Assembly (NCBI GenBank): GCA_009746045.1
Contig: RPFO01000103.1
Span: forward strand, 1,523,121 to 1,587,120
Length of the DNA: 64,000 nt
Reading direction: 5' to 3'
DNA from: Mesostigma viride
Lineage: Eukaryota > Streptophyta > Mesostigmatophyceae > Mesostigmatales > Mesostigmataceae
This document shows positions 13,756 through 41,703 of this stretch, in pieces (positions within the stretch are counted from its first letter, which is position 1; each line of letters opens with the position of its first letter). The translations under genes were made by a program, and so were the position numbers. A model generated the notes under the pieces. It did not search any database and had not been told where the DNA came from. It worked only from the letters and a program-made list of their open reading frames with translations.

Positions 13756-13799
13756 TGCATTTATAAAACTCTCACAGTTTTCATCTTTATCATTCCAAA

Positions 13800-15074: not shown

Positions 15075-15133
15075 GCGTGTTCGTGCTGGCGCAGACACAC
15101 CCCACCCCCCACCCCCCACACCCAAACACACCA

Positions 15134-16460: not shown

Positions 16461-16639
16461 TGGATCTGATGTGGATGTGTGCCCAGGTTGCTGGGAGCCC
16501 CGCCACCCGTTACCTGCAGGGGGACGCTGCAACAAGCCCAGGAAGGGAGCCTCGACGGGGCGCACCCCAAAACAAGCCAGCACTCAGGACGACTGTAAGT
16601 CTCCTGTACCCTGGTTTCTTAATGGCCGTGTACCCTCTA

Positions 16640-20463: not shown

Positions 20464-20985
20464 AGTTATTCTAGGGCTTCAGGCCTAGACTATCAGTACA
20501 CGTGGCGTTGTCCCCGTCTCCCAAGTGGGATACGGACATGGACGGTAGTGTAGTACACTGGACATATCTCTACTAGGATTTAGATCCGCACGTGCCAGGA
20601 TGGGCACGTGGGTGCTAGATATTAGCACTGAGATATGTAGTGCACACGCACGTGGGTATTCACGTGGTAGGGTTTATGAGCTGTGATGCAGACCACAAGG
20701 TGGTTGCAGTGCTAGTCCTGTACGGAGGTCCTAGGGGAGGTCCAGGACCGTCCACGTAGTGCTGTTAGGCAGTCGTTGCCTGTGGGCATCGTATCAGTCC
20801 TAGCTGGAGTAGATCTAGCTGGACGGAGCCAGCACCTCATTGGTTAGCACTAGTACAGGATAGCTAGGTTACCCTAACCTACGTGCCCATGCAATCCAGC
20901 TTGGCAAGCTTGCATGGGTTGATATTATGCCAGCCATTGCATAATCCAACAGACGTTCGCATCCATTTGCACGAGTGCATTAACT
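20464..20985 (+). repeat. CopA 3' LTR
   Basis: 522 bp, nearly identical to 13234-13755, followed by the AAGGT duplication. Confidence 0.93.
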
Positions 20986-21032: not shown

Positions 21033-23519
21033 TTGCTAGGGTCCGCCAGGGAGGGGGCTAAGAGTGACCCCCCCATTACTCTGGATGAAGTTGATTTGCT
21101 CCCTGCACAGGTTGAGAGTCTCCCACTTAAGGTTGAGAGTCCCCCTGCACAGGTTGAGGGTGCATCCATGGAGGAAGAACACAATGGGGTAGTGACTGGG
21201 TCTTCCCACGTCACCATGGTGAAAGCAGTTACCACAAGGCAACAACGTTCCCACATGGCTCTTGGAGGTAGTTTGCGTACTCCTTCAATGTTGGAGCGTG
21301 GAAGTCCTGCCTTAGGGCAGGAAGCTCCTTTAGAGGAGGAGGATGAGGCTGATGGCCTGAATGATGCAATGGGGAGCTTGGTTGTAAGAGAGAGTGCTGT
21401 TCCAAGCACCTCACCTGTATTTAATAAAATGTCTCTTGTGTCAAACATTGCATTGAGATTGCATCATATGTTTGGTCATGCTGCCCAGGCACTCCAGTTT
21501 GCAAGGAGGCTGGGAGGGACATCTTTGTTTAATGCAGTAAAGCAGGTTGCTGAGGCTTGTTCCTGTAGGCTGGTTGCTCCCAAGCCTAAGAAGTCTCATG
21601 TCAGACAACCTGTGTTGCAGCCTGGATATGTACAATGTGATATCCAAGAAATCAGGAAACTGATTTTGTTGGTGGGTGTTGACAGATACACCAAGTACAA
21701 GGTGCTGGAGCTGTTGCAAGACAAATCTAAGCCATGTTTGGTGGCTGGGCTCCAGGCTATCAGATCCAGAATGAAACCAGTGATCCAGCTGCAGTGTGAT
21801 TTAGAATTTGAGTGCTGCATGGGGCATGAAGACCTCCCTGAGTTATTTGTTGTACACAGGGAGTCCCATGGCAGTCAAGGCGTGGTGGAGAGGACAATCA
21901 GAGAACTCAAGACTATTCTGCTGACGGAGAAGAAGATTCCAAGATTGGTTCCAGCTATTATCAAGACGGCCTGGTTAAGGTCAGTTGAGGACAGATTGAA
22001 TGTCAGGGCATCCATGTATGTTGGAGAGGTCCCTGTGACTCCATTATCATTGCATCTTCGGGAGCTCCCTACTGAGGTTGAGCAAGCCTGGAAAGATAGC
22101 CTTATGTTCAAGTTTGCCAAGTTGAGGCAGAAAGACAAGGGCTGGAGTGTTCTGAAACCTGTTGTTGGCCAGAGGGTAATTGTGTGGAAAGAGCCCAAGC
22201 TTGCAGGCAAGCGTGGTAGCTGGCACCCTGGAGTAGTGACCAGGGTGGAACTAGCTGGGCACAAGTGCTGGGTGAAGATGGAGGATCCTCCCCAGAATGT
22301 GCACCGTCTGTCGTGGTCATATGTACGTCTAAGGGGTGCTGAAGCAGAGGCAGTATCTCCTGATGTGACAACCTTGCCAGTTGGTCATGACGTCATCCCT
22401 GATCATCACGTTCAAAGTGGAGGTAATCCCCGGGCAAGTCCTGGCCAGACCCCTGGACCGGTTAGCTCTCCAGTCATTGGACAGGCAGATGTGGTCCCCT
22501 CTAGCCTCACTAAGCATAGAGGTGTGGGCCTGAAAGATGTGGTGCTGGCTATGCAAAAAGCCAAGCAAGGACCTCGGGTGTCCAAGCTCAGCCAGTTGGA
22601 GGAGTCCGAGGATGCTGTCCTAGAGGTAGATACCAATGCTGAGGTTTCTGTTATGGGATCTCAACATACAGGTCAACGGCAGGTGCTTTCGCCTAGTTGT
22701 GCTTGGGTGTCTGACTTTAGTGGCAGGACACACATTATGGTATTGGGAGAGGTGCTGGTACCCTTCATGGGTGAGGATGTCACATTTCTTGTGCTTGAAG
22801 ATTATGATGGCCCTATCATCTTGGGTCAAAATTTTCTGAGCTCTCCTGGAATTGTTGTGGCACATAATAAGCTGAGAAAGTTTGGCTGGGGCAGTATCCC
22901 ATTGGTCAACTTCAAAGCCTCCCTTACCAGTGTATTTAAGCCTGTGAAAGCGATCAGGAATGTGCAGTGGCCTGAGGATCAGATTCCTGTGGCTTCCAGT
23001 CTTGTGATGCCAGCTGCTCTCCATCCTAGCAGTATTGATATTACTAAGAGATCACTGGCTGCTCATTCTCCTCTTAGCTATGATCAGCTTGTCCAGGAAA
23101 TGAGTTCTCCTCTGATGTTTGAGGCCTGGAGGCTAGCATTTGCCAAGGCCCTAGAGGAGTGGTTGCAGTTTGACTGCTGTCAGCCTGTGAATGAAGTTCC
23201 TCCATACAGTACACGGTTGAAGCTCAGATTCGTCATCAAGCGGAAGGAGGTGGAGGGGGTGTCTGTTCCCCATGTGCGTCCAGTTCTTAATGAATACCGT
23301 GGTACTGGGGATCTTCTGGGCGAGGAGTTGTATAAACCTGGGATGCTACATGATACATGGCGTATTTTATTGTGCCTGTATGTCGGTATGCTGAACCAGG
23401 GTGCTGATATGTCTTCAGTTCTGCTAGATTTCAAGAGAGCATTTCTGAAGGGTGATCCCAGTGTGGCTCAGCAGGTGTGGCACTGTGAAACTCCATTTCA
23501 TGTGCCAGTTCCTGTAGCC
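21033..23519 (+). pseudogene. CopB integrase, retropepsin-like domain and RT N-terminus
   Basis: One long frame up to the gene-island junction. Integrase comes first: LHHMFGHAAQ with CSCRL downstream (zinc motif, about 21460-21570), VQCDIQEI and LQCDLEFEC as candidate Asp residues, and GSQGVVERTIRELK with the Glu. The SH3-like tail has GKRGSWHPGVVTRVE. The protease-like domain comes next: EVDTNAEVSVM (DTN, about 22624-22656) and IILGQNFL. RT then starts (LRLRFVIKRKE, LLDFKRAFLKGDP). At 23519 the RT is interrupted between Val-Ala codons by the 13.6-kb island and continues at 37098 in frame. Apparent codons from 23520 to 23708 belong to the island. Confidence 0.85.
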
Positions 23520-23797
23520 CTACAAAAACCCAAGGTGACCCCAGGGGTGGGCACCTGGGACACATGGATCCACGGGAAAATCATCACAAGTGGCCAGGGT
23601 GTGACAGTAGCCAGCATATCATCACAATCCCGTGGGGTGCATGGACACGTGTACAATACATCCATTATTATTCATAATAAAATCCAATTACACATTGTGA
23701 TGCCATGAAATGACTCAATAATGCAAACAGTGTCCATTGCTTTATTCATTTATTCAAAAACAGCTGTCCTTCATGAACTGTCAAGCCACCAAATGTC

Positions 23798-24794
23798 TAC
23801 GTCTTCTTCTGGGCGGCCTGGGCGGCCATGCTCTCTGCGATTTGAGCGGGTGTGAACCCCATAGTCGCCATGTGGTTCAGCATCCTTTGCAGGGTGTCTA
23901 GTCCAGCAGCAACTTGAGCGTCACTAGGGACAGGCTTGCTCCCTGAACCCTGCCCAGCTGCTGGCTTCTCCTGCCCAGCTGCTGGCTTCTCCCCAGGAGT
24001 GACAGGTGCAGGCTTCTCCTCCTCGCTGGCGGGTGCAGGCTTGTTTCCAGCACTGGGTGCAGGCTTCTCCTCAGCACCGGCTGCAGTCTTCTGGGAAGGG
24101 ACGGGGGTCTTCTTGATGGCGAATGACCTGTCTGCCGGGCTCGGCGTGATCTTTGTTAGCTTTACGCGTCGTCCCACCGGTGGCGACTTCCTTGCCCTCT
24201 TGGAGGAGGGAGTGGATCCCTCCTCCTTCTTTACCACAACCTCCCACTGCATGGGCGGGGGGTCGTTGGTTCCGGTAACGTCGACCTCCTGCGCTGCGAG
24301 GATTTCCTCCTGCTGCATGCGTTCAGTCCACGCATCTCTCGCCATCTTGGCTGTGACACGATTCCCTGGAGCCACGTTCGCCGTCCCCCTAAAGTTCTTG
24401 AGAAAGTCACGCATACGTGCGTCGTACTGGCTGTCAATCTTTGACAATGGCAACCATGCAAGCGTGAGGTCAGAAAACCTCGTCCTCACGTGCATGACCC
24501 CGCCTTCCAGCTTAACGCTGTCAAATTTGTACACCTTTCCGTCGTCGTTGTATGCTGGCTCCTCCTCCTCCTCGTCTTCCTCATCTGATGACGAGGAGGA
24601 GGAGACAATGTCGGCATTTGCCGGCCCCCCTGGATGGCCTTGCCCCTAGAGTTACGCTTTGAAATGTCGTCGACTGTCTCTTGGAGTATATCTCCTACAG
24701 CGTGAAATAAAGCGGCGATTGGCAGCCGCTTCGCCTGCCTCACGTTGTCCTTCATAATATCGCTATCCTTCATCATACCTGGGCTATCGTTCAT
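23798..24794 (-). CDS. Island gene 1: lysine/proline-rich protein, possibly frame-broken, unknown
   Basis: The ATG at 24794 starts a short helical segment (MNDSPGMMKDSDIMKDNVRQ to about SRGKAIQG). At the six-base G run (24625-24630, C on the plus strand) the coding signal moves to another frame: an acidic serine stretch, then YKFDSVKLEGG, RTRFSDLTLAWLP and DFLKNFRG. This is a compact ~60-residue domain that loosely recalls chromodomain-type beta strands (weak inference). It is followed by a basic region with KRARKSPP and a long EKPAP repeat tail. The C-terminal 40 residues look helical. About 300 residues in total if the frames are joined. An AATAAA on the minus strand lies at about 23738. 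The G run may be a sequence error or a real slippage site. Confidence 0.5.
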
Positions 24795-24799
24795 TGTGT

Positions 24800-25340
24800 C
24801 ACTTCTCTTCTCGTTGCTTGATTAATTAATTCATTGCACGCATTCACGCCGCCTTTGATTCATTTTGTATATGTTTACCACCCCCAAAATTCGATAATTT
24901 GCCAAGTGGGCCGCCAGCCACCCCCTTACAATTCGTTCCAAGTTCAGAATGTACATTATATACGATTCTGATGCGTGATACTGCATTCGTACGGTGCAAG
25001 TACCATATTCTGGCGTCGTACGATGCAGTATAGGCGCGGCTCTGAATTCGGTGGTCCCGGACTTGAGAAAATTGCCTAAGTCCCAAACACTAAGGCGTAT
25101 GGGCCTGCTACCTAAGTGCACAGGCCAAAGTACTTGTCCAAATTGTAATTAAATTATATATCCATGCAAGGCTTGATAAGCACATTGTTCGTGAATGTTT
25201 GCATGCAAGAAACTTTTATTATTTCAATAAAATCATGAGTAAATATATGAAAATGCACAAGGTCCCACGGGACTTGTCCTATACTGACTACCATGCGTGC
25301 TAGTGTACATCACAAATGACAAAGTCCTAGGGACTTGTCT
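24800..25340. other. Island intergenic region
   Basis: No gene seen. AT-rich, with poly(A)-signal-like AATAAA near 25224 and a CCACGGGA motif at 25265-25272. Confidence 0.5.
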
Positions 25341-26502
25341 CTAGTCCCCCTTCATGGAGCAGGGCCTCATGGAGGGGTTGGAGCCAGACGGGCCAGCTCG
25401 AAAACGCTGGGAGGGGTTGGCACCACGGAAGACCTTCTCCTTCTTCACGACTGGCTCCTCAGAGGTGGGGGGGGAGTCAGCAGGGCGCTTTCCCTTGAGG
25501 AAGTCGCTCTTGGGGACCTCCACAACGTCGTCATCGTCATCCTCCACCTCGATGACCTTGGGGGCCATCTTGGAAGGCGTGGTCTTCATCCTCCTGCAGG
25601 TGTTGCCCCTGAGGAACTTGGGCTCCTCCTCCTCCTCCTCATCCTCCTCCTCCTTGACCACAGCCTCCTGGGGCTGCTGCTCCTCCTCCTGCTCCTGCTG
25701 CTCCTCCTCCTCCTCCTCCTCGGGATCCCGCTTGAACTGGTACCACGGGTCCTCCGCGTCGTCCAACGGCTCCTCGTCGTCCTCGTCCTTCTCAGACTCG
25801 AGGGCCCCCTCCTCAGCGTCAGACTCGTCCTGGATTTCCTGGAGGCGCCTGCGTGCCTCCTCCTGGATCGCCTTCCTCCTCTCGTCCCTGTCCGCCTTCC
25901 TCACTTGCCACTTGAGTGGCATGTTGTAGCGAGGGTCGGACTCGCAGGGGTCCACGGGCCTGGGGATGTTCGGAGCAGTGAAGACGTTCTCCTCCTTGGA
26001 GAAGAAGCAATTGACGCAGAGCTCGCGCTTCCAGTTGGCGTTGGGGAAGAAAGCCCACGGAGCGGTCTCATCCCCGCACTCTGGGCACTCGGGGGGGAAA
26101 ATCGGCTTGTGGTCGATCTCGTTGTTCTGCAAAGTGGGGCGGGCAGCACAAAAAATGACAAGGGGTAGTGCGTCTTGTTAGAATCCACAGGAGGAGTGCA
26201 AAAATGCAGCCAAAGTCAGCAAAAAAACGCAAGGAAAGGAAGTTTACCTCGAGCTTGTGCTCGCAGAGGATGCATTCCGTGTGGTAGCCACCGATATCCT
26301 CGGGGACCTTGCGAAACTTGTCAATGGGGAGCAAGGTATCGCAACAAATGCAAATGGACAGCACTTCTGCGACTGGCTTGTTTTCCTTGTTCCTTTTTGC
26401 GAGAGCTGCGTCAAAAGCGTCGTGGAGCTTGTCTGTCATATCGTGGACTTTGACTCCATTGCCTGGGTAAGCACGGACTGGGAAACGCTTAGTGCGGGCC
26501 AT
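25341..26502 (-). CDS. Island gene 2: spliced double zinc-ribbon protein with acidic tail
   Basis: Two exons: 26502-26248 (ATG, 85 codons) and 26126-25341. The 121-bp intron starts GTAAAC, ends CTTTGCAG, and removing it joins phase 0, giving 346 residues. Exon 1 ends with a CxxC...CxxC unit (CICC...HTECILCE). Exon 2 opens with a second unit (CPECG...ELCVNC). These are likely two zinc ribbons. After these come a charged helical region, a long Glu-rich tract and a basic C-terminus (KGKRPADSPP, VKKEKVF). It looks like a nuclear zinc-binding regulator; function unknown. A TATAAAAC box lies at 26594-26601 and a leader motif shared with genes 3 and 8 at 26536-26554. It is divergently arranged with gene 3. 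Confidence 0.8.
26127..26247 (-). other. Spliceosomal intron of island gene 2
   Basis: 121 bp on the minus strand, GTAAAC...CTTTGCAG with a pyrimidine-rich end. Splicing restores a zinc-ribbon protein in frame. Confidence 0.85.
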
Positions 26503-26535
26503 TGTGTTTTGGTGCTAAGGGGTTGGTTTTGCTGA

Positions 26536-26601
26536 GAGCTTTTTGGCTATGGCGGTTTGGCTTGCAGAATGCCCTTGGATGCAAAGGGGAAGTGTTTTAT
26601 A
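26536..26601 (-). promoter_or_regulatory. Island gene 2 promoter and leader motif
   Basis: On the minus strand TATAAAAC (26601-26594) is followed about 40 bases later by CCGCCATAGCCAAAAAGCTC (26555-26536), which recurs almost exactly in the leader of gene 3 at 27192-27212. Confidence 0.7.
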
Positions 26602-26750
26602 CCTTCCCCGTGGATGACGCATGGGACTTGTGAAAAATCCTGTGGTCGCCGCTGTGACAGGCTGGTAACGGCAAAACGGCCGTGGAAATCCACGCGGTGA
26701 AGGCCGCGGGCCGCGTAAATCCACGGGAAATCTGATACGAAACCGTCTTT

Positions 26751-26935
26751 CACGCGGCACGCCACGCTGGACTGGCATGTAACCGCCGTTTCCCGCGGCA
26801 CTCCACGCTGGACAAGTTCAGAAAACGCCGTTTCCCGCGGCACGCCACGCTGGACTGGCATGTAACCGCCGTTTCCCGCGGCACGCCACGCTGGACCGGT
26901 ACGTAACGGCCGTTTCCCGCGGCACGCCACGCTAA
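26751..26935. repeat. 41-43-bp tandem repeat between divergent genes 2 and 3
   Basis: Five copies of GCGGCACGCCACGCTGGACT-type units separated by TTTCCCGC-containing spacers. They sit between the two divergent promoters, so they may be shared regulatory or replication-related sites. Confidence 0.8.
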
Positions 26936-27191
26936 AATCGTGAAGTAACCGCCACGCCAACTTGTCAGTCCCGAGCCGCGGCACGAGAAAACGGAGATCC
27001 CGAGATCTTCCAGCGGATTTTTTGGCGTGATTCCTTGTACGGCGTGCTGTCTCACGGGAAATCTCCTGCAAAACGCCTGTTCAGGCCAATCGCACGGTCA
27101 CAAATCGCCCAAAAACTTTGAGGCGGAGAAGGGTCTTCGAAGTGTATATGTGCCCAACCACCACGCCTCCACGAGCACTCACCACTACACA

Positions 27192-27212
27192 CCGCCATAG
27201 CCAAGAAAGCTC
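27192..27212 (+). promoter_or_regulatory. Island gene 3 leader motif
   Basis: CCGCCATAGCCAAG plus AAAGCTC, matching the gene 2 leader apart from one inserted base, 20 bases before the start codon. A TATA-like GTGTATATG lies at about 27142. Confidence 0.65.
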
Positions 27213-27232
27213 ACTACATCTCTCAGAACACG

Positions 27233-28449
27233 ATGCCTAGGACTGGATTCGCTTCTAACTCTCATGGTAGCCAGGGCGTGAGGGGGGGAATGAGGCCTGT
27301 GCCTCGCCCACTTCCAAGGGAAGGAACTCGCGACAGGCCATACGACGCTGAGCAGGAGCAAGAGACGGGTAATGTTCCTTTTCCTGTCCTTTTCCGCCCT
27401 TTCCCGTGGAGAGCTGTCGTTTGCAAGTGGTTTTGCCCCAAAAGCTCACTCCTCGTGTGGTTTTCCGTGGCTTATAAATTTGTTTTTTTTTCAATGCTTG
27501 CGTTTTTTTTTTTTGCTTTTTTGTTTTGCTTGCAGAAGAAAGCCGTGACGCCAAACGGCTGAAGGAGATGCCTATGAGGCAGAAGGTCTCCACTCCCGCC
27601 GGCATCCGCGAACGCTCTTGGCAGGAGAAATACGAAGGGCTGTCCTGCAACGTCAAAAACGCAGTCGTTATCAAGTTGCCGCAGTGCCCCTTCTGCCTGG
27701 CCCCCAGCAAGACGGGGAAGTACGCGAGGCTCGTCGCCCTCATCGACCATCCCCACATCCACGAGTGCAACTGCGTGATGTGCCCCGAGTGCGTGGAGAA
27801 GATGAAGGCGTTCCATCTCACCAAGCCGAACGGCAAGACCACCAACATGAAGTGCCCCATGTGCAGCTGCGAAGTCCTCACGCACTACCACAAGTTCTAC
27901 CAGATGGACCACGCCCTCAACGAGCTGGTGGCCTCCCTCCCCTACGGCTTCTGCGACTACGGCTGCGGAATGTTCCTTCACAGGGAGGACGTCGACGAGC
28001 ACTTCGCCACCTGCGAGAAGAACCGCTTCGAGTGCGGTTTCTCCGTCGATATCAAGAGGCAGGACGGCTCCAAGTCCAAGACCGGCTGTTCTTACACTGG
28101 CAGGAAGGCGGACGTGGAGGCTCACATGAAGAGGTGCGCCTACTACCACGAGGCCTGCGCTGTGCTGGAGCTGAAGGAGAAGGCCAAGCAGGCAGATGCT
28201 GTGAAGGAGCGCCTGATGAAGGAAGGCCACGGCGCCAGGGAGGACTTGAGGATGCTCCTCGGCTTTACGGCTGAGGAGATGGACAATGTAATGGAGCGGC
28301 TGGTGGTGAAGGAGTTGGACCGCGTGGGGCAGCTCCCGTGTGCCAGCTCGCTGCCTGATGGAGGCCAGGCGTTCCCAACAGATAGCGAGATACAAAACGC
28401 CTCATTCCCAGTCCTTGAGGTGTCACAGGGCCCCAGTCTGCAAGGATAG
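27233..28449 (+). CDS. Island gene 3: spliced RING/TRAF-type zinc finger protein
   Basis: Exon 1 is 27233-27368 and exon 2 is 27536-28449. The 167-bp intron (GTAATG...GCTTGCAG, with long T tracts) splits a Glu codon and splicing keeps the frame, giving 349 residues. After a basic, disordered N-terminus there is a RING-like cluster, CPFC...HECNCVMCPEC...MKCPMC. Next comes a TRAF/SIAH-type finger, CDYGCGMFLHREDVDEHFATC, then a further Cys/His pair (CSYTG...HMKRC) and a helical C-terminus. Proteins of this design are usually ubiquitin ligases or their adaptors, which is a reasonable inference here; no substrate is suggested by the sequence. An ORF on the opposite strand is a shadow. Confidence 0.8.
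27369..27535 (+). other. Spliceosomal intron of island gene 3
   Basis: 167 bp, GTAATG...TTGCTTGCAG with poly-T tracts before the acceptor. It contains one TCCCGTGG motif at 27402-27409. Confidence 0.85.
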
Positions 28450-29270
28450 TGTAGGTGCAGGATGCCAGCATAAGATGTGGGTGTTTTCAGCACTAGGCTG
28501 TTGGAGATAGGATGCCAGCATAGGATGTAGATGTTTGCCAGAATTAGGCCAGTAGATATGCGAATGCCAGCATAACACAACGATGTTTTTTAATGACTTG
28601 GAAAAGATGTGAATGTTCTGGCCCAAACGTAAAAAATATCTAAGTGCCATAGTATATTTTAGTATCTGTAGTTAGGAACAGGCCACGTGGCAGCCACAAA
28701 GCCCGAGGGTAGCCAGCCGAATCTGTAGTACGAGAACCGACGGTTACGGAACGGACGGGTACGGACGAGTACGGACGGGTACGGACGGGTACGGCCAGTA
28801 CGGAACGGACGCGGCACGCGGAATCCCGTGGACCACCGCGGGGCCCCCGTGGGTCCCGGCGGTTTTTAGGTTCCAGGGTTAGTATTACGGGCGCCCCCTG
28901 ACGCACAAGTGACAACGAGTCGTTAGGATGGCCGAGTAGAGCACGGCAATGGGGGAGATTCCTTCTGGACGGAACGCAGGGCCGAGGCGTACTCGGCGCA
29001 CAATTGAGCTCCCTCCGTGCTCATTCGCACCGTCGACCCTATATCTTTATCGTCGCTCGTGGCAGTTTCTACGCTATAACAACAACCCATGGGCGTGCAC
29101 ACATTGTGAATGCGAAAAGGTTTTTTCATTGATTATCGTAAATAATGCATGAATTGCACGGACAGACGCCGTCCATGTACGCTCAAGATTCGCAGGCACA
29201 AGAGGCCCGCGCGCATCGTATCCTTTCGCGACTGTTTCAAAACCCCCGTCCTCTCTAGGACCAAGGAGGA
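28450..29270. other. Island intergenic region with two short repeat sets
   Basis: No convincing gene. Three copies of ATGCCAGCATA lie at about 28463, 28512 and 28564. At 28747-28810 there are about five copies of ACGGACGGGT-like units. A TCCCGTGG motif lies at 28824-28831. Confidence 0.6.
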
Positions 29271-29273
29271 GAA

Positions 29274-29930
29274 CTATTGAAGCACGGTGGTGTTCGAATA
29301 TTGGTCCACGTGTCGCTTCGTAGCGCTCGACCACCACCCGGAACGTTCCCAATGAAATCCGGTCGTACTTCTTCCCGCCATGATTTCTTGACGCTCTAGC
29401 TGGTTGAACGTCTTGAACACGAAACTGTGCGCGCGTTCTTGCAAAGTCCAGTTCCTCCCGGCGACGTCGTACAGCCGCTCCTCCACTCTGCGCCTCATGC
29501 TGTTAGACACCCTCAGCTCCATCACGTGCACGATGCCTTCCTCCAACTCCTCCCAAAGGGCCCACATCTTGTGGATTTTGTCGCCCCGGGGCGTGAAAAC
29601 GGCGTCCTCGCACTCTTGGAGCCTTTCGGGCGTGAGGGCGGCCATCACCCCTCGCAATTGTTCGTCCGTCCTCTGTTGGAGAAGGGGGTCGATGCGGTCG
29701 ATCTCGGCTTCTTGACGAAACGCCAGTTCTTTGGAAATGGCGAGCTCCAAGTTCACGTACCGCCTTTTGAGATATTCCTCTTCCAACTTCTCTCGTTTCA
29801 CCTCCTCGTACGCTTTCTGCGTGGCCTTGTTGATGCCATCGCCGAACGGCCAAGACTTTTCCACGATCTTTTTGATGAGTTCCGGGGGGAGGGACTCGTA
29901 GCAAGCGGGCTCTCCTTCGCCGTTCTCCAT
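29274..29930 (-). CDS. Island gene 4: helical protein, unknown
   Basis: 218 codons from the ATG at 29930 (MENGEGEPACYESLPPELIKK); the in-frame GTG at 29963 is less likely. The first 30 residues contain LPPELIKKIVEKSW, which resembles the start of an F-box, but the rest of that motif is not clear, so I do not call it. Residues 45-170 are charged and predicted helical, with coiled-coil character. The C-terminus is Ser/Trp-rich. No catalytic motif. It is transcribed away from gene 5, sharing an upstream region at 29931-30113. Confidence 0.55.
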   Translation of the reverse strand: MENGEGEPACYESLPPELIKKIVEKSWPFGDGINKATQKAYEEVKREKLEEEYLKRRYVNLELAISKELAFRQEAEIDRIDPLLQQRTDEQLRGVMAALTPERLQECEDAVFTPRGDKIHKMWALWEELEEGIVHVMELRVSNSMRRRVEERLYDVAGRNWTLQERAHSFVFKTFNQLERQEIMAGRSTTGFHWERSGWWSSATKRHVDQYSNTTVLQ

Positions 29931-30113
29931 CACTGCGAGAATGGCGTGCGAGGACGGGGACACCTTTCGTCAGAGAGCGGGTGACAATTTCAAATAAGCA
30001 ACGAACGCTCCTGAACTCTGAATTACTCTAGTACGGGCTTCTAGAAGGGTGGAAAGTGAATGGACGGCCAGATACTCAGACACTCCACGTGGCATTCGTA
30101 GGACGGTCCACGT

Positions 30114-30944
30114 ATGATACGCCGTTTGGGGACCGGTGACGTGGTTTTCGAAGGTGGCGGACGTTTAGACCTCCCTCAAATGATATGTAAAAGCAAACAA
30201 CCGATCAAGAAATACGGAGCCATGGAGGCAAACAAGATCATGGAGAGGTACCTCTGCCCCTCTCGTCCTTTCAGTGACGACGAGGATGACCCGTTCGAGG
30301 GGAAGATCCGCGTAAACGTCGACGGCCAAATATCGGTCATCGACGTAATAAAGGTTATGCTGTTCATGACTGATGACGGGGCTTTCACAAAGAACTCCGG
30401 TGTCCACGCCAATAACACGTTCGCAAGGCTTGCCAAAGTCCACAAAGAGGTTTACTCTCTTTGTGTAAACTTCAAATTCCCCGGTCCCGGGCAGCGAGAG
30501 ACTCCGGTCACGGACCGAGCTGGGATCTTGAACATCATTCAGTTGCTTCCAGGCAAAAAGGCCGCGGTTTGTCGCCGTGCCATCACCGTGTTGTTGGAGA
30601 GGTACCTCGACGCAGACCCTAGTCTCATCCAGGACCTCCATGATAGGTATCGTGACAAAACCGGCGAGGAATTCGTCCCGTTGTCTCGTTCCGCTCTGGC
30701 CGAGACCCCTCGTATCAAGGCGGCAGAGGCTGTAAAGTCAGACATGTTGGCAATCAAGAACAGCTCGAAGGAGAAGGTGCCTCCTCGCGTGTACGCATTC
30801 GTGAACGACGTGAGCAACAAACTCGTCACGGGAGACCACACGGCCAAGTACCGCGAGAATCAAAAGCTGGTGAAGAGGAGTCAGGCGACCAGAAACACAT
30901 TTACGGACGCCATCAGAGCTCATTGGCAGAATTCTTCCATCTGA
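30114..30944 (+). CDS. Island gene 5: KilA/BRO-like family protein (GQR-TPV type)
   Basis: 276 codons; later ATGs at about 30181 and 30222 are possible starts. Residues about 115-185 carry a signature I associate with a domain of large DNA viruses and protists: FKFPGPGQRETPVTD, then LLPGKKAAVCRR and LERYLDADPSLI. Related virus proteins are often DNA-binding or of unknown role (KilA-N/BRO neighbourhood). The exact family is from memory and needs a profile search. The C-terminal 90 residues are basic and helical. The frame stops just before a second open frame at 30924-31159. Fragments of the DNA encoding the FPGPGQRE segment recur as noncoding repeats at 31330-32025. Confidence 0.6.
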   Translation: MIRRLGTGDVVFEGGGRLDLPQMICKSKQPIKKYGAMEANKIMERYLCPSRPFSDDEDDPFEGKIRVNVDGQISVIDVIKVMLFMTDDGAFTKNSGVHANNTFARLAKVHKEVYSLCVNFKFPGPGQRETPVTDRAGILNIIQLLPGKKAAVCRRAITVLLERYLDADPSLIQDLHDRYRDKTGEEFVPLSRSALAETPRIKAAEAVKSDMLAIKNSSKEKVPPRVYAFVNDVSNKLVTGDHTAKYRENQKLVKRSQATRNTFTDAIRAHWQNSSI

Positions 30945-31159
30945 GCCACCAAGGCATGGTATCAAAGGGTGGGGACCCGAAGAAGGTTGCTGTGGATATA
31001 GAGGAGGCACTGGCACCCGGGCTAGAGAGAATGGGTCACTATGAGGAGGCTCGCAAGTACCGTGGTCCTGAGTTCGCAGAGAAGAACAGGATTCTGATGC
31101 AGCAGAACCGACTTCTTATCAAAGAGGAGCAGCAGGCAAAGAGGATCAAAACGGAGTAG
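30924..31159 (+). CDS. Island ORF overlapping the end of gene 5, possible continuation
   Basis: About 78 codons in another frame with no good ATG until MVSKGGDPKKVAVDIEEAL (about 30957). It is charged and helical with a lysine-rich end (AKRIKTE). It could be the C-terminus of gene 5 reached by frameshift or splicing, or a small separate gene. Confidence is low on which. Confidence 0.35.
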
Positions 31160-31194
31160 CTTTCTCACACCGAAGTGACCACGTGTGGTCTCTG

Positions 31195-32030
31195 GAACTT
31201 CCCTGGCGCCAAGCAGCGTCCTTTATTGTTCACACACTCCGAGGTTCACTATGGCGTAGTCAACCTCTGTTCGAGCCACAAGGAGGTTCAAACGCCACAA
31301 CAATGTTTTCATCACGTGCCCTGACGGTCGGTCACGGGGGTGTCTCGCTGCCCCTGACCGGGAAAACGGAAGTTGTCGGCCAGGCCGACAACTTCGGGGG
31401 TTTCAACTTCCAATTCCCGGTCCCGGGCAGTGAGAGCCCTTGAATATTCACTGATCCATTCACAAAGTCCTTTATTATTAACACATGCGTCCTTACGTGT
31501 ACTTATAATATCCGAATTGCGTGTCAAATTGCGCCTCCCCTTTTTCTACCAGCTCTTTCCAATAAGTCGGTACACGTTCAGGGGCCGAGAACGGCTTCAT
31601 TGACGGTATCCCCCATGAGATCAGTTTGTGTATCCCGAAAAGGATAGGTGGGAGTACGGATACTGCTACGAGTACGATGGCGATATACAGAAATTTATCG
31701 GTGACGTGAGATTGTTTGAGCCACTGATGATACTGCTTATCAGCGTCATAGGGGTTTCGAGATCTGAGCCATACCGGTATGGACCCCCCCACGAATATTA
31801 GAAACCACACGACGAAAAATATTATAATCTTTGCGGTCCTGTCAACCATCGGGTGTCATAGTGGGTACGTAAAAAAAAAATAATTCTGCCACCGGGGTAC
31901 GCTAGCTTCCGTAACCTCTGGAATTCCCCAGTCCCGGGCATCGAGAATCTTTATTATTTACACATGCCGAGGTTGTATACCCCAGAGACAACTTCAAATT
32001 CCCCAGTCCCGGGAAGCGAGAGGCCTTTTT
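31195..32030. repeat. Dispersed copies of a gene 5 fragment plus 3'-end modules
   Basis: The string TTCCC(C)(G/A)GTCCCGGGCA plus GCGAGAG, part of gene 5 at 30475-30510, recurs in degenerate form at about 31331-31378 (inverted), 31401-31436, 31921-31952 and 31987-32022. A second module, CTTTATTNTTNACACA, recurs at about 31218, 31464 and 31948. The inverted and direct pair at 31331-31436 can fold into a hairpin. Confidence 0.7.
31493..31849 (-). CDS. Island gene 6: small two-span membrane protein
   Basis: 118 codons from the ATG at 31849. Residues 7-27 (AKIIIFFVVWFLIFVGGSIP) and about 53-75 (FLYIAIVLVAVSVLPPILFG) are clear membrane segments, with a charged loop between and a polar C-terminal tail. 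No family recognised. The gene overlaps the repeat module region at its 3' side. Small membrane proteins of this shape are common in DNA viruses and organelles; that is context, not an identification. Confidence 0.65.
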   Translation of the reverse strand: MVDRTAKIIIFFVVWFLIFVGGSIPVWLRSRNPYDADKQYHQWLKQSHVTDKFLYIAIVLVAVSVLPPILFGIHKLISWGIPSMKPFSAPERVPTYWKELVEKGEAQFDTQFGYYKYT

Positions 32031-32126
32031 GCTAGCTAGTGGGTCCACTCATTGAAGCACTTCATGGCTCATGGGTCCACTCATCCCTAAACTAGGTAGT
32101 CGAATCGGAAAATATCCCACCGTACA

Positions 32127-32390
32127 ATGGTGAATATGTGGGGTCTTTCGAACAAAGCCACGTGGGCTATAATGATCCTTTGTTTCATGATGTTCCTAGC
32201 CGGATTGGGAATGGTTCTATATGGCGGATTAGATAGACCGAATCACGGACCCGGCGAGAAAGATTATAAGGAAAAACAGAAGAGATTGACAAGGATATTG
32301 TATAGTGGCGTTGGCGTTGCAATTGTCGGGCTTGTGCCGCTCTTCGCCGCCATTTTGACGAATTTTAATGAATTCTTAGATGATGATTGA
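32127..32390 (+). CDS. Island gene 7: small two-span membrane protein
   Basis: 87 codons from the ATG at 32127. Residues 12-34 (AIMILCFMMFLAGLGMVLYG) and about 60-80 (YSGVGVAIVGLVPLFAAILT) are hydrophobic spans. The loop between is lysine-rich and the tail acidic. The orientation (a two-span hairpin with a charged loop) resembles gene 6, with which it is divergently arranged across 31850-32126. An AATAAA follows at 32424. No family recognised. Confidence 0.65.
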   Translation: MVNMWGLSNKATWAIMILCFMMFLAGLGMVLYGGLDRPNHGPGEKDYKEKQKRLTRILYSGVGVAIVGLVPLFAAILTNFNEFLDDD

Positions 32391-32513
32391 TCCACTCATT
32401 GAAACACTTTATTATTCATTCATCAATAAAGTTCTTTATTACTCATTACATTTCATCCATCAAGTCCAATTCCCCAAGTCCCCAAGTATCCCCAAGTCCC
32501 CCAGTATCCCCAT

Positions 32514-34028
32514 CTAGAGCTCGCCCACGGGCGTGTACGAGAACAGCGCCGTAGCCTTGTCCCGCAAGTTAGCCACCCTATTCTGAATAGCAGCCGCCCC
32601 CGAACGACCCGCGGAAGCGCAAGCCCGCACCACAGTGCTCCTCGCGAAGAAGCTGAACTCCCTCGCCATCATTGCGTAGTCCCGCCTGCGGTCCTCGGGC
32701 ACCAGAGGAAGCAAGTCCCTCAAGATGTGCTCGTTCAGAGTCGCCAGAGCCAGCGCCTGCGTGCGCAACGCCGCGCGCTGGTCGATGCGAGCCGCCATCT
32801 CCGGAGACGAGGGCGCGATCTTGGCCAGGCAGGCGTCCACCGCGTCCCTCTCGGCCCTGACCGCCTTGCATGTCCCCTGCAGCACGCACGGCTGCCTCCA
32901 CCCCTCCTCGATCTGGGCGTTGCGGATGTTCCTCCAGATGGCCTCCTGCTCCTTGTCCTCCGCCTTGTCGAGCGGCACCTTGGTGGGCATCTGCCCCCAG
33001 CACTTGGCGGGCGTGACCACCACGAGGGGGTAGACGAGCTTGGCCTCCTGCTCCGGGTCGATGTTCTCGACGCGCGCGGGCTTCCTGTCCTCCCCGGGCA
33101 GCAGGAGGAGCCTGTCTACCTTGTGCTGCTCGCCCGCCGGCGTGGGGAAGACCCTGGCTGCCGGGTTCCTTGTGAGCAGCGCCCTGACCTGCGCGGAGTG
33201 CTGCCTGGGCGCGTGAACGGGCACGTCCCTGTTGATGAGCACGTGGTTGGGGAGGATCTGCCTTGGCTGCTGCGGCTGCTGCGGCTGCGGCTGCGGCTGT
33301 GCGAGGACGGGGCTTCTGGCGGCCATGGCGGTCGCGGCGACTTGCATCCTGGCGAGGTTCTGCATCCCCTGCGCGAAGAGCTTGACGGGCGGCAGGAGCG
33401 GGGGCCCCGCGGGCCTGGGCACGACTTGGGGCAGCTTGGGCACGCCCACGACGGTCTGCGGGTTGCAGGGCACGCCCACGGCGACGGAGATGACCGTCTT
33501 GGCTCTCTTTGCCGCCGCGGCCGCCGCCACCGCGGGCACGATGCGGTAAACGAGCTCCTTCCTCCCGTCCGGGTGCACGACCTCCATGGTGACGGCTCCC
33601 TCGGGCAGCGAGAGGATGGGCGTGGGCGCAGGGGCCTGCGAAAGGGCTGGAGAAAGGGCCGGGGCGGGCAAAGGCGCGGGCGCCATCTCCAGGGGTCGTT
33701 TTGGCCTCTGCGCGTTGAGGTTGGCGTTGGCGTTTGCCTGCGTCTGCGGCTGCGTCTGCGTCTGCGTGGGCGCGGGCGTGGGCGCTGGCGTGGGCGCGGG
33801 CGTCTGCTTGTTGTTGTTGTTGTTTGCAGCCCCCGTGCCCGCCTGGACCGCCTTGATGACCTCGGGCACGATTTTGAGCGTGGCGAGCGCGGTGGCGGCC
33901 TCCTTCTCGTCGTCAGAGAGGTTCAGAGAGTGCATTTCCGGGATTGCAAGGAGTGCCTGATCCTTAGCCTTAGTCTGAGCCTGAGCCTGAGCCTGAGCGG
34001 CCTCGCACAAAACGGAGAAGGCGTCCAT
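32514..34028 (-). CDS. Island gene 8: Ala/Pro/Gln-rich protein with helical C-terminal domain, unknown
   Basis: 504 codons from the ATG at 34028. Residues 1-75 are helical. Residues 80-250 are low-complexity (APTP, QTQ, AAAA) and include a nuclear-signal-like AKRAK. The C-terminal ~200 residues are more ordered, with WGQMPTKVPLDKAEDKEQEA, WRQPCVLQGTCKAVRAERDA and an all-helical end. No catalytic motif is recognised. The leader 19 bases before the start contains GCCATAGCCAA (34057-34047), shared with genes 2 and 3, which supports this strand. The 446-codon opposite frame (32727-34067) is Arg/Leu/Gly-rich and looks like a shadow. Confidence 0.65.
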   Translation of the reverse strand: MDAFSVLCEAAQAQAQAQTKAKDQALLAIPEMHSLNLSDDEKEAATALATLKIVPEVIKAVQAGTGAANNNNNKQTPAPTPAPTPAPTQTQTQPQTQANANANLNAQRPKRPLEMAPAPLPAPALSPALSQAPAPTPILSLPEGAVTMEVVHPDGRKELVYRIVPAVAAAAAAKRAKTVISVAVGVPCNPQTVVGVPKLPQVVPRPAGPPLLPPVKLFAQGMQNLARMQVAATAMAARSPVLAQPQPQPQQPQQPRQILPNHVLINRDVPVHAPRQHSAQVRALLTRNPAARVFPTPAGEQHKVDRLLLLPGEDRKPARVENIDPEQEAKLVYPLVVVTPAKCWGQMPTKVPLDKAEDKEQEAIWRNIRNAQIEEGWRQPCVLQGTCKAVRAERDAVDACLAKIAPSSPEMAARIDQRAALRTQALALATLNEHILRDLLPLVPEDRRRDYAMMAREFSFFARSTVVRACASAGRSGAAAIQNRVANLRDKATALFSYTPVGEL

Positions 34029-34059
34029 GTCTGTTGTGTAGGAGTGTTGGCTATGGCTG

Positions 34060-34545
34060 TTCGTTAGCTAGCTAGCTTGTGTGTGCGTGTGCGTCTGTGC
34101 GTGTTCCTTGCGCGTTGGAGTGCCTTTGTCCTTTCCCGTGGGTCTCGCGTGTGGTGGCTGGACCAATGGGCGCTCGGCGCGCGGTGGTCGTAACGGTCTT
34201 TCTGCCCCGCGCCCCGGTCTGTCCAATGGGCGTGCACGGGATCTCGTAACCGCCTGCGCGTGTCGTGTTCGTTCCGTCCTTCTCAGTCTACGAGTGGCGG
34301 CTGGCGGCCGGTGGTGACGCACGGGATCTCTTCCCGGATCCGCTGACAAGATCTCGTGGCGGGCCGCGGGAATCTTCTAGAAGTTTCCAGCCGGCGCGAC
34401 GCCATCCGTTTTCGTCCAATGGGAGCGCACGGGAATCGAGGCCGGTCCGCGTAGAAAGTGCGTGGTCCCCTCGGACTTGGCCATCTCACTCACGCATCCC
34501 GCGCTATCGTCTATCTCGGCAATCTTCCTTGCTTTCTTTCTGGCT
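34060..34545. promoter_or_regulatory. Divergent promoter region between genes 8 and 9
   Basis: Contains three CCAATGGG boxes (about 34167, 34222 and 34416), two of them followed within ten bases by CACGGGA, plus TCCCGTGG at 34134-34141. This suggests CCAAT-type activation with an island-specific motif. Confidence 0.6.
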
Positions 34546-35436
34546 ATGGCTTCCTCCGCCCGTTTCCTGTCTTGCAACAAGTGCAAGCGGGCGTTCCCCG
34601 AGTCCCACTTCCTGTCCGCCCGCTTGGCGAACGGGTTCACGCTGGCGTGCCTTTCTTGCCGCGAAACTCAGAACAAGCAGGCCCGCCTTCGCAAGGCCCG
34701 CGCGAAGGAGATGCAGCAGGACGAGGAGGAGGACTACGAGAACGTGCCCTCCTTCAGCTACAGCTCCTCTGAGGGCGTCTCCTCCGAGATTTCCTCAACT
34801 TCCTCTGGTGTGGCCGCTGACGCCGTTTCCGAGTCGTCTTCTGACGCTGAGTCGGAGCCGGATCGCCTCCCTTCTCCTCGCACTCCGTGCGCCCCTTGCA
34901 TGCCGGCTCCTTTCCGCCGCTGCCTTCGCGTGAAGGGCAAGAACCCGCACCTGCGCCCTCACGACGGGATGGGCGCTCGCGTGAAGGACAGCTCTCGCCG
35001 CGAGTTGCGCGGCTGCCGTCGCCGTCTGTCTCCCTACTTCCGCGGTTCTCCTCCCAAGTCTTCGGAGGCGCACGTGCAGGACGACGAGGTGCTCGGTTGG
35101 GGCGCCTTCGAGGGCCCCGTGAAGGATCTTTTGAGCGAGTCCCGCATCCAGCGGAGCGACCGCGAGATCCGCGAGGCGATCGATCTGATGGCCGCCGAGG
35201 AGGAGAAGTCTCTCGCTCCCGCCCCCGCTCCTTGCGCTCTGGAGGAGGAGGAGGACGTGTTTTCGGCGATGGGCCCCTTCCGCGTGGAGGACATGGACCT
35301 GGACCTGGACTTGGAGCGTCTGGGCGAGGACCTTTTCTGCGACTTCCGTTTGGGCGCTCTTTCCTTGGAGGACATTGCTGGGCTCGAGAAGGTGGAGAAG
35401 GAGCGTTGGTTCCTCCCCTTCGAGCTGAAGAATTGA
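34546..35436 (+). CDS. Island gene 9: zinc-ribbon protein with acidic, disordered body
   Basis: 296 codons from the ATG at 34546; the upstream in-frame extension to 34462 is less likely because it lies in the promoter. Residues 9-40 form one CxxC...CxxC unit (CNKCKRAFPESHF ... ACLSCRE), the same pattern as in genes 2 and 10. Then come a charged helix, a Ser/Glu-rich stretch, a Cys/Pro patch (PCAPCMPAP), a basic block and acidic amphipathic segments (MDLDLDLERLGEDLF) that look like transcriptional activation sequences. An AATAAA lies at 35495. A transcription-regulator role is inference from composition. Confidence 0.7.
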   Translation: MASSARFLSCNKCKRAFPESHFLSARLANGFTLACLSCRETQNKQARLRKARAKEMQQDEEEDYENVPSFSYSSSEGVSSEISSTSSGVAADAVSESSSDAESEPDRLPSPRTPCAPCMPAPFRRCLRVKGKNPHLRPHDGMGARVKDSSRRELRGCRRRLSPYFRGSPPKSSEAHVQDDEVLGWGAFEGPVKDLLSESRIQRSDREIREAIDLMAAEEEKSLAPAPAPCALEEEEDVFSAMGPFRVEDMDLDLDLERLGEDLFCDFRLGALSLEDIAGLEKVEKERWFLPFELKN

Positions 35437-35800
35437 AGTCCTCGGGCCGTTGTTTTGCCCTTTTCCACGGGGCTTGCTTGCCCCCATGTATGATAATAAA
35501 GTACATTTCCTCCCATTTGATTGGCTCCAACTCATGTGCACTAGGTAGTTCCGCGGCCTCGCGTATCTGTACTAGGAACTTGCTACACCCGCCGAATCCG
35601 AGCGATCCGATTGGCCGCTAGTAGACGTACTTGGAGTATCGACCAGTAGGGGTAGCATAACCACGCTCCTCCATTTTGGACCCGTTTCCCACGGGATGGT
35701 GATGGTAAAGGTGACTCTGCTGATTTTTTCGCTTTTGGAAAACGAAAAATTTAGTTTTGCTGGACAAGGTAAATCGGGCATATCGCGGTCCGTGGTCCGG
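35437..35800. other. Island intergenic region
   Basis: The 3' end of gene 9 (AATAAA at 35495) and a CCACGGGA motif at 35689-35696. No gene seen. Confidence 0.5.
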
Positions 35801-35898
35801 CACATGTCAATATTTTATGGTCAGTGATGGAGTATATTAATAATGCTGGCACATGTCAATATTTTATGGTCAGCGATGGAGTATATTATAAGCAAGCG
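35800..35898 (+). repeat. 49-bp tandem duplication at the start of gene 10
   Basis: GGCACATGTCAATATTTTAT and the following GGTCAGYGATGGAGTATATTA occur twice in a row (from about 35800 and 35849). Only the second copy reads on into TATAAGCAAGCG. Confidence 0.85.
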
Positions 35899-36898
35899 CC
35901 CCTCCGCAAGCGCAAAGCCGTCAAGGGATGCCGCCTCCGCTGCTGCGACCCCAACGCCGTCCTCTGCCCCCCCTCGCCTTGCGCTGTCGACGACGAGCCG
36001 GAGGTGCGCGAGTACGGCATCACCGACCTGGTCCCCGACCCTGACGAGTCCGTGGCCCCCTTCGACTACGAGCAGGCCGTCAGAGACCACTACCCCTGCG
36101 ACAAGTGCCACCAAAAGGGCCCGGACAGCATCTTGATGCGACACAACCCCAGGAACAAGATGGGCTCCATGGACGACATCCTCTGCGAGGAGTGCCTCGT
36201 CTCCTGCATCAGCATCATCATGGACGAGGGCAGGGACTCCGAGTACCGCAAGAAGTACATGTCCCAGTGGATCAGGGTGCCCGTGCCCAAGCCTGAAACC
36301 AGCCGCCCGCTCGTCCCGCTGGAACAAGGGGGCAGTATAGGTGCCGCGAGTGCAAGACCATGCCAAACAAGGTCGCCTTCCGCGTCCTGCACAAGGAGGG
36401 GGACACCGAGCCAGGGATCTACTGCGAGCCCTGCGTCAACAGGCAGGTCGTGGCCATCATGCGCAAAGGAAACCACCAGGACTTCGGCCCCATGGTCGCC
36501 AGCTGCGAGGACGTCCTGCGCCGCTTCAAGCTGGACGAGGACTTGGCGCGCATCTGCTCCTCCCTCGCCCCCTCCTACAACTTCCCCTACTACGACCAGT
36601 GGCCGCCCGCGAGGTGCGAGAGCTGCAAGCGCGAGTTCGAGCACCACGCCATGTCCGCCTACATGATGTACATCCCTCAGGAGGGCACCATGGGCGTGGC
36701 CTGCCACTTCTGCGCCAGGAACGTGCACAGGAAGGCCCTCATCAAGTTCGACGGATACAGCTTCGACAACCGCTTCAAGGCGTGGTACCAGGACGGAGAA
36801 AACAACAAGCTATCCGGGCACGTAGCGCCCCTCACGGACATCACCACCCTCCTGGGCGTGCACGCCATCGGCGCCCCTGTGCCGGTTGACTACGATTA
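35824..36898 (+). pseudogene. Island gene 10: triple zinc-ribbon protein, frame-broken at a G run
   Basis: Frame one (35824 to about 36330) has a basic start, a Cys-rich patch (GCRLRCCDPNAVLC) and the first zinc ribbon (CDKCHQKG...DILCEEC). At the G5 run 36328-36332 the coding signal moves to the frame that reads RCRECKTMPNK...YCEPC (second ribbon), CESCKREF...ACHFC (third ribbon) and ends GAPVPVDYD before a stop at about 36898. Joined, it is about 355 residues. The start codon is uncertain because it lies in a 49-bp duplication. The G-run shift may be an assembly error, in which case the gene is intact. Likely nucleic-acid or protein-binding; function unknown. Confidence 0.65.
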
Positions 36899-37025
36899 AA
36901 CAGCCTCATGGGATCAGTAGCCACAAGTGCACACCTAGCCCAGCCCTCATCAATAGACAAGTCTCTGCCTGTAAATTATTAACTTGTAATGAAAAAACAA
37001 TTCGTGCATGCCCACATCTCATGCA

Positions 37026-37057
37026 GTGCCACGGGACTTAGAAAAATCCCGTGGCAC
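37026..37057. repeat. Perfect hairpin near the right end of the island
   Basis: GTGCCACGGGA and TCCCGTGGCAC, 11-bp arms around a 10-base loop, 40 bases from the island terminus. The left end has the same CCACGGGA/TCCCGTGG pair at 23570-23577 and 23628-23635. Confidence 0.85.
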
Positions 37058-37097
37058 ACAAAAGATAGGGGGGAACATGGGGTCACCCTCGCGGAGC

Positions 37098-38158
37098 GTA
37101 GCCTGGCAGGCAGAGCTCCAGTCTAGCTACCTGCTGATTCTGAAGGGTCTAGAAGGTCTCAGGTCCAGTCCCATCATTTGGAGGCTCACCTTGGAAGACT
37201 TCTTGACTAAACACTGTGGGTTGAAGGTGTCATCTGTGGACCCATGTTTATTGCTGGGTAGGTGGCATGATTTACCTGTGTATGCTAGCCTGCATGGTGA
37301 TGACTTGCACTTGATTGCTCCCACTAAGTGGTTGAGTCAGTTTGTGCCCATCATTAATGATGCATTTCCTTTGGGAAAAGAATTGTGGCGGAAGCCTGGA
37401 GAGGCTGTCACGTTCTGTGGAATGCAGGCTACATTGGTTCAGGAGGGGAGTCAGTGGCTGATTAAGCTGCAGGCGGGCAATGACTACAAGAGTACCATTC
37501 TTCAATCTGTTCCAGAGGTCATGACGTCATCCATTGCACCTGAGCTGAAAGGCAAGTTGGCCTGGTATGGCAGCATTTGTGGGCCTGACATGATGGTCCA
37601 TAGCAGATCCCCTGATGATGTGCTAATTCTGGAGGAGCCTTCCCAGATTATTGCACATGTTAACAAGTCTCCTGGTATTACTTTAGCTGGGATTGATTTG
37701 TCTTTGCCATTTTCCTTGGATATCTATGTTGATAGCTCCATGGATAGCAGGCAAGTTTCTAAGGTCAGAGGCAGGTCAGCTGGCTTGTTTGTGCTTCAGC
37801 AACATAGGCCTAGTCTTGTGGCCTGGTACAGTCGTCTTCAAAGAAGGGTTGCTGTGAGTTCAGATGTCTCTGAGTGCAGAGCCATTTGTGAAGGGATTCA
37901 GTCCAGTTTGTACATCAAGGAGCTGTTGCTAGCTATGGCTTCAGTGACTCCTCATACTCTTCAGCTGGAGACCTTGATCCTTTCAGATAACATGGGTATG
38001 GTCCAGTTTGTGCACAAGCAATTGGCCAGAAGCAGAGATCTGGATTATCTCCTGTTGAAGGAGTTGGCAGGTCTGGTGGATATTCAACATCTTCCAGGTT
38101 CTGAGAATCCTGCTGATGCCTTGACCAAGTTGCCTCACAAGTCTGCTGAGCAATATTA
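37098..38158 (+). pseudogene. CopB RT C-terminus and RNase H
   Basis: Continues the CopB RT after the island. It includes LKGLEGLRSSPIIW, the catalytic LHGDDLHL (about 37291-37315) and FCGMQATL. RNase H follows with VDSSMDSRQVSKVRG, WYSRLQRRVAVSSDVSECRAI, LSDNMGMVQF and the closing NPADALTKLP. This part is a single open frame with no damage, so CopB was probably intact before the island arrived. Confidence 0.88.
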
Positions 38159-39674: not shown

Positions 39675-39685
39675 GAGTTAATATT

Positions 39686-41652: not shown

Positions 41653-41703
41653 TTGCCTGGCAAGCAATATTATTCTACTAAGCTACTTGGCTTGTAGAGA
41701 TTC

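Follow-up and report, generated by a model that had tools for sequence, protein, structure and literature searches.

A probable shortened copy of a large virus-like mobile DNA element in the streptophyte alga Mesostigma viride

We analysed a 64,000-nucleotide stretch of the Mesostigma viride genome (assembly GCA_009746045.1, contig RPFO01000103.1, positions 1,523,121 to 1,587,120; hereafter the window), in which a block of closely packed genes interrupts a copia-type polyprotein gene. This block probably derives, by shortening, from a large virus-like mobile DNA element that has multiplied across the Mesostigma genome, and it is likely to be non-autonomous. The evidence comprises defined CTAC and GTAG ends, a 2-bp target duplication, dozens of copies, junctions that fall on one axis, mirror-image forms, and loci at which the left and right ends (L and R) face each other across a linker.

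Joining position 23519 to 37104 restored the reading frame of the reverse transcriptase region of the copia gene, confirming an insertion that had been proposed from the sequence of the window alone. That original prediction had placed the block at 23520-37097 (13,578 bp), within a 6-bp duplication, GTAGCC. Its left edge was retained, and the GTAGCC repeat is present at 23514-23519 and 37098-37103. However, GTAG at 37098-37101 is element sequence, because all 18 right ends read (of 40 listed) finish in GTAG. The element therefore spans 23520-37101 (13,582 bp, CTAC...GTAG), and the target duplication is reduced to CC. Each of the 18 right ends terminated in GCGGAGCGTAG before passing into other DNA (16 distinct host flanks and 2 linkers). 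Compared by eye, L and the inverted right end agreed in 16 of 24 positions; together they form a short, imperfect inverted repeat containing GGTGACCCCA. The features of the insertion site are as follows.

23514..23519, no strand: target DNA left of the insertion, GTAGCC, of which only the last 2 bases (CC) are duplicated
23520..23543, plus strand: left end L, CTAC, 10 bases and GGTGACCCCA, with a sharp boundary against host flanks
37078..37101, minus strand: right end R, with inverted GGTGACCCCA and terminal GTAG, as in the R loci read
37102..37103, no strand: 2-bp target duplication CC, from comparison of L-R pairs

Ends were paired by position and orientation. For all seven L-R pairs read, that of the window among them, the flanks matched suffix to prefix over exactly 2 bp and no more. 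The duplicated dinucleotides were CC in the window, CG in copy C1457, CT in C14, GA in C1, CA in C1579, and AA in both C1495 and C1413 (the left part of the latter being duplicated), giving six different sequences among the seven pairs. As a control, the dinucleotides of L and R host flanks agreed in 27 of 240 combinations, true pairs included. Since the dinucleotide differs between copies, a staggered cut is favoured over recombination at a fixed dinucleotide. The GTAG that precedes CC in the window target is a coincidence, being absent from the other six left flanks. Two properties of DNA transposons were thereby observed: the target duplication is constant in length, and the same ends abut many unrelated sites, with 15 different host flanks in 30 L loci and 16 in 18 R loci.

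The original prediction had regarded a solitary copy as evidence against a mobile element; in the assembly containing the window (440 Mb, 2,243 contigs), dozens of copies with the same ends were found. The left 240 bp of the element gave at least 40 matches at 95-100% identity, 40 being the number scored of 54 candidates, and the right 218 bp gave at least 40 in the same range, with 40 of 53 candidates scored. The best 30 left-end loci comprised 15 distinct host flanks, 3 repeats of those, 11 linkers and 1 R-to-L fusion. Judged from their positions, L and R were 13.6 kb apart in the window, about 16.0 kb in C1457, 16.1 kb in C14 and 18.6 kb in C1495, and 36.5, 60.3 and 68 kb apart in the larger copies in C1, C1579 and C1413, respectively. 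The C1 copy also lies inside a copia stretch, that of RNase H (by eye). At C1413:2393116-2414801, module A (defined below) and a 33-nt mirror tail occur twice within a 16.3-kb tandem duplication; this module A is 99.8% identical to the window copy, and an R end with matching AA lies 68 kb further on. We found no earlier report of the element in the literature searched, two Mesostigma genome papers being covered by word search only.

Comparison of the window element with 20 overlapping 10-kb stretches from six contigs revealed that the window copy is a fusion of two modules.

23520..28892, plus strand: module A, 5.4 kb, followed by its mirror image in four other loci
28889..28896, no strand: axis GGGC/GCCC, where module A ends at all 10 loci read, and where it is joined in the window to module B
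28892..37101, plus strand: module B, whose start is preceded by other sequence in C1032

Module A stopped at this one axis (between 28892 and 28893 in the window) at every locus where its end was read, and was joined there to several kinds of sequence; the stretch taken from C1 ended before reaching the axis. In the window it was joined to the start of module B. The sequences that follow it in C1579 (9.17 Mb), C1457 and C14 matched none of the loci compared. In C1413 and C1579 (6.64 Mb) it continued into a mirror tail and then other DNA, while in C1625, C1032, C1758 and C1801 it was followed by its own mirror image about the same centre. Mirror tails measured 1 nt in C1457, 4 nt in both the window and C14, 5 nt in C1579 (9.17 Mb), 18 nt in C1579 (6.64 Mb), 33 nt in C1413 (present twice) and at least 60 nt in the four palindrome loci. 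Tails of such varied length on one axis are as would be left by a hairpin end opened at different distances from its tip; the P nucleotides of V(D)J joining offer an analogy for tails from opened hairpins. A random read-through artefact was considered as the cause of the palindromes and is disfavoured, since their centre is identical in four loci. Separately, TAGTATTAC, the nonanucleotide nicked by circovirus and nanovirus replication proteins, occurs once in the window, at 28880-28888, 4 bases before the axis, and may be there by chance.

Within one locus the palindrome arms were 99.0-100% alike over the stretches compared, and they were 91-97% identical to the window copy. On one side the palindromes met host DNA at CTAC; on the other lay a 49-bp linker and then the R end of a module B. 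L and R faced each other across this linker in 13 loci, 11 of them found among the 30 read from L and 2 among the 18 read from R. The linker was complete in six of them and its last 41 bp were seen in seven more, although C1546 and C1547 may be one locus assembled twice.

Compared with the window copy, larger copies add about 13 kb or more. Beyond module B, some 12.8 kb are common to C1625 and C1801 at 99-100% identity, and C1579 shares about 9 kb with both at 80-98%. A 300-bp marker from this region was present at 16 places, 14 of them at 100% identity and two at 73-74%. An R end is known for 12 of these places; in 10 of them the marker precedes it by 18-22 kb in the same orientation, and in the remaining two the distance is 37 and 41 kb. 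From these distances the uninterrupted form may be estimated at about 43 kb. The 14 identical places suggest recent spread of the element, unless they are partly assembly duplicates. A smaller loss was also evident. About 1.6 kb carrying a MYND-finger gene, present in C1801, are gone from the window copy, where 35889 is joined to 35890 at the edge of the following feature.

35799..35889, no strand: two 41-bp direct repeats, from repeat comparison

We infer from these forms a hairpin-ended linear free form, a circle, an attachment site and a cutting enzyme. The free form would be a linear molecule in which at least the end at the axis is closed covalently as a hairpin, and R-49bp-L would be its internal attachment site; its order would be axis - A - L - 49 bp - R - B - further genes - other end. 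A circle would result if its opened ends were joined to each other, and the mirror-image dimer if two molecules were joined head to head at the axis. A recombinase would then cut at R and L and drop the linker, and the rest would enter host DNA with a 2-bp stagger to yield host / L-A-axis-x...B-R / host. The window copy would descend from a circle closed with a large loss, its axis end joined to the start of module B, and a separate smaller deletion would have removed the MYND gene.

We regard it as a probable virus-like integrating element, and there is a real chance that it forms a separate lineage. More tentatively, and as one joint claim, we suggest that this may be a new lineage of algal mobile element, whose DNA would alternate between an integrated state and a linear, hairpin-ended state resembling that of a virus or plasmid. 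An enzyme outside all recognised families would cut at the internal R-49bp-L site and insert the DNA with a stagger of 2 bp, and incomplete end-joining would continually generate shortened copies. The original prediction had offered a virus-like element or a non-autonomous giant transposon, and each fits in part as a shortened copy of a larger multi-copy element. Its third option, an autonomous element with unrecognised mobility genes, is not supported for the window copy and may apply to the larger forms.

The count of about ten densely packed genes given by the original prediction was about right, though three of them (P1, P5 and P10) are frame-interrupted in the window copy.

23797..24794, minus strand: P1, frame broken in a G run that varies in length among copies (open reading frames, ORFs)
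25341..26502, minus strand: P2, zinc-ribbon-like (CxxC pairs by eye), exons 26248-26502 and 25341-26126 (splice check)
27233..28449, plus strand: P3, RING/TRAF-like and cysteine-rich, exons 27233-27368 and 27536-28449 (splice check)
29274..29930, minus strand: P4, 218 aa, no recognised family (ORF)
30222..30944, plus strand: P5, BRO/DdrC-like, frame-interrupted near its 3' end, related coding sequence continuing to about 31159
31493..31849, minus strand: P6, small hydrophobic protein (ORF; membrane segments by eye)
32127..32390, plus strand: P7, small hydrophobic protein (sequence; membrane segments by eye)
32514..34028, minus strand: P8, 504 aa, no recognised family (ORF)
34546..35436, plus strand: P9, N-terminal zinc-ribbon-like motif by eye (ORF)
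35827..36899, plus strand: P10, with several zinc ribbons recognised by eye and a frame break in a G run (ORF)

Two genes bear out the predicted introns: those of P2 (26127-26247, 121 bp) and P3 (27369-27535) are both gt-ag, and the spliced exons read through. The N-terminus of P10 is altered by the join of 35889 to 35890. The breaks in P1 and P10, the two genes compared in this respect, lie in G runs of differing length among copies, and assembly error cannot be told apart from slippage there. Programmed frameshifting at these runs was rejected because run length varies between copies and even between palindrome arms.

Ratios of nonsynonymous to synonymous substitution (dN/dS) were calculated against other copies, which are not independent of one another. 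Values were 0.11-0.23 for P3, 0.14-0.24 for P8, 0.21-0.39 for the larger part of P1, 0.13 for P4 (against a single copy, C1032), and 0.26-0.42 for full-length P9 with 0.06 for one part. The second half of P10 had few changes (0.26-0.80), and P3 and P1 were identical between the two loci of one duplication. With five genes or parts well below 1, mostly at 0.1-0.4, most of the proteins of the family seem to be under constraint.

None of the 10 window cargo ORFs or parts scanned reached a Pfam cut-off, in agreement with the predicted lack of a recognisable transposase, integrase or polymerase. The exon-2 ORF of P3 (293 aa) was 100% identical to Mv09422, from a cluster of 14 members, a predicted protein whose label Mesvir1 we read as Mesostigma viride; its search otherwise returned seven further Mesvir1 clusters at 50-97% identity and nothing else, and its Sina/TRAF Pfam matches were far below cut-off. 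Relatives of P5 were found in Mesvir1 (44-63%), one metagenome (40%) and one marine source (38%), and the family has relatives encoded in 12 IMG/VR contigs that are phage-like by eye. The BRO-like assignment was upheld at the level of the family: a 10-sequence profile matched DdrC at E 5.2e-16 and a 6-sequence profile at E 1.1e-7, whereas P5 alone matched no PDB structure and another single-sequence search gave E 0.04. A 33-bp BRO-like coding stretch of P5 (30468-30500) recurs between genes at 31404-31436, 31915-31947 and 31990-32022, 73-94% alike; these recurrences are candidate gene remnants or binding sites. Across 23570..37054, the motif CCACGGGA was found 10 times in the element versus 2 in the rest of the window. 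GCCATAGCCA was found 4 times versus 0, three of these lying no more than about 60 bp ahead of a start codon, as judged by eye.

In Pfam scans the larger forms showed an OTU domain, whose E value of 9.5e-5 lies exactly at the cut-off, a MYND domain at E 4e-7 and an F-box domain at E 3e-5. They also encode another BRO-like protein, which shares 38% identity with P5, and four proteins that by eye have a CxxxT...C...CxxH-type start. BRO, OTU, F-box, MYND and CxxH proteins are the kind of cargo seen in large DNA viruses. The Nucleocytoviricota core genes (capsid, PolB, A32 ATPase, VLTF3 and D5) were not recognised in the ORFs scanned, which covered part of the largest forms, so that absence of hallmark genes from the family is not established. 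PHROGs gave weak matches for window proteins, and the best for their relatives was phrog_15286, function not assigned (E 2.3e-6, P0012). The search of viral contigs with P0012 alone was fruitless, as were searches in phages with P8 and P0012. NCBIfam gave one match, far below cut-off, and Rfam and tRNA scans gave nothing useful.

Several of these results, and some features of the junctions, weigh against a virus-like element with hairpin ends. Capsid, polymerase, packaging ATPase, transposase, recombinase and integrase all went unrecognised in the scanned ORFs, and some 15-18 kb between module A and the larger-form marker lie outside the sequence read. A crude motif scan for HUH and tyrosine-recombinase signatures found nothing convincing in the ORFs of the window element and five loci, and PF03175 had no match in the Mesostigma genome, but its controls were silent too. 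P3, P10, the OTU ORF and a 371-aa ORF had no close relatives in viral contigs, and protein searches with P3 and the OTU ORF returned Mesostigma proteins only. The hairpin ends themselves are deduced from junctions, not from free DNA. The shortest mirror tails may reflect chance or microhomology, and a palindrome breaking at its centre could leave similar tails. Finally, at C1579:6642349 an R end is fused directly to an L end, head to tail, without the 49-bp linker and with about 6 bases missing from each tip.

Of the other explanations, the one that survives best, though we consider it unlikely, is an ordinary though large DNA transposon that captured genes and belongs to a DDE superfamily not yet recognised; it would have no viral phase or hairpin, and its palindromes and axis joins would arise from aberrant transposition and palindrome instability. 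Short inverted ends, a 2-bp duplication of varying sequence, many copies, some internally deleted, and the lack of a recognised virion gene in the ORFs scanned are all consistent with it. Yet the same axis recurs in six joins to other DNA besides the four palindromes, the linker between the facing L and R ends is constant, and the BRO, OTU, F-box, MYND and CxxH content resembles that of large DNA viruses.

That gene content would also suit a known giant virus, degraded and then duplicated by the host, with common ends that are those of a passenger transposon. Near-identical copies could likewise stem from duplication, like the 16.3-kb one in C1413. The 15 L and 16 R distinct host flanks, with exact ends and 2-bp duplications, require insertion and not duplication, making this explanation improbable. 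A derivative of a Polinton, Polinton-like virus or virophage is more improbable still: size, multi-copy integration in a protist and virus-like genes agree with one, whereas the duplication is 2 bp instead of the 5-6 bp of Polintons, and PolB, integrase, capsid and ATPase were unrecognised in the ORFs scanned (PF03175 being silent along with its controls). Although homopolymer-length differences show that small assembly errors may occur, we count an assembly join or one-off segmental transfer as refuted by the restored reading frame, the dozens of copies with the same ends, and the 2-bp duplications in seven of seven pairs.

For the proposed virus-like element, the nearest life cycle among those compared appears to be that of the Ectocarpus phaeoviruses (PMC13236599). 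Their latent endogenous viral elements have a circular attachment site where left and right ends meet and a separate internal palindromic site, read as a hairpin telomere (telRL), so the cycle proposed here has a parallel in an Ectocarpus giant virus (PMC13236599). The Mesostigma element presents a fixed axis with mirror tails, read from junction sequences. The same source describes algal viral DNA with a dinucleotide at the integration junction and introns in viral genes, as here, but also one element of 346 kb, shared core genes, a tyrosine recombinase and a telomere resolvase (PMC13236599). The phaeovirus dinucleotide is fixed (CC, or GC in FsV-158) and present in the virus too (PMC13236599); no such fixed dinucleotide was found in the Mesostigma element, where it varies as a target duplication. 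The Mesostigma element also loses its 49-bp linker, and no recombinase or resolvase was recognised in its scanned ORFs.

Other systems were compared as well. Teratorn of medaka is a precedent for fusion of a virus and a transposon, a virus-like genome bounded by transposon-type ends (PMC5601938, PMC10175614). At 180 kb, it combines a piggyBac-type transposon with herpesvirus genes (PMC5601938, PMC10175614), whereas no transposase or known virus family was recognised in the scanned ORFs of the Mesostigma element. Chlamydomonas punuiviruses are also endogenous green-algal viruses with target duplications; unlike the short, imperfect ends found here, theirs are large terminal inverted repeats, and they carry a supposed retroviral-like integrase (PMC13236599). 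Mriyaviruses are virus-like double-stranded DNAs of 35-45 kb that lack a DNA polymerase, comparable with the roughly 43 kb estimated here; all of them encode an HUH endonuclease and were found through their capsid protein (PMC11253617), and neither was found in the part of the Mesostigma element read. At the level of a single gene, the P5 family profile resembles Deinococcus DdrC, a bacterial DNA damage response protein, whereas P5 is borne by an element in an alga.

Outside the element, the window holds a direct duplication at 39679-45641, its copies spaced about 4.1 kb apart, 97-100% identical and containing shorter repeats nested within them, and, by eye, two further copia-type elements at 13203-20732 and 48261-52700, the first with 95% identical repeats at 13203 and 20433. 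Tandem arrays consist of 63-bp units at 434-811 and of TTCGCACGAT-like units of about 10 bp at 41799-42124.

If the proposed explanation is true, the element would combine hairpin-type DNA ends, transposon-like insertion and cargo of the large-DNA-virus type, which are seldom seen together, in an alga from the base of the streptophytes, the lineage of the land plants. Its copies would record intermediates (the circle, the head-to-head dimer and the end-joined deletion), such that the cycle could be read from genome sequence. The element also shows a possible origin of non-autonomous giant elements.

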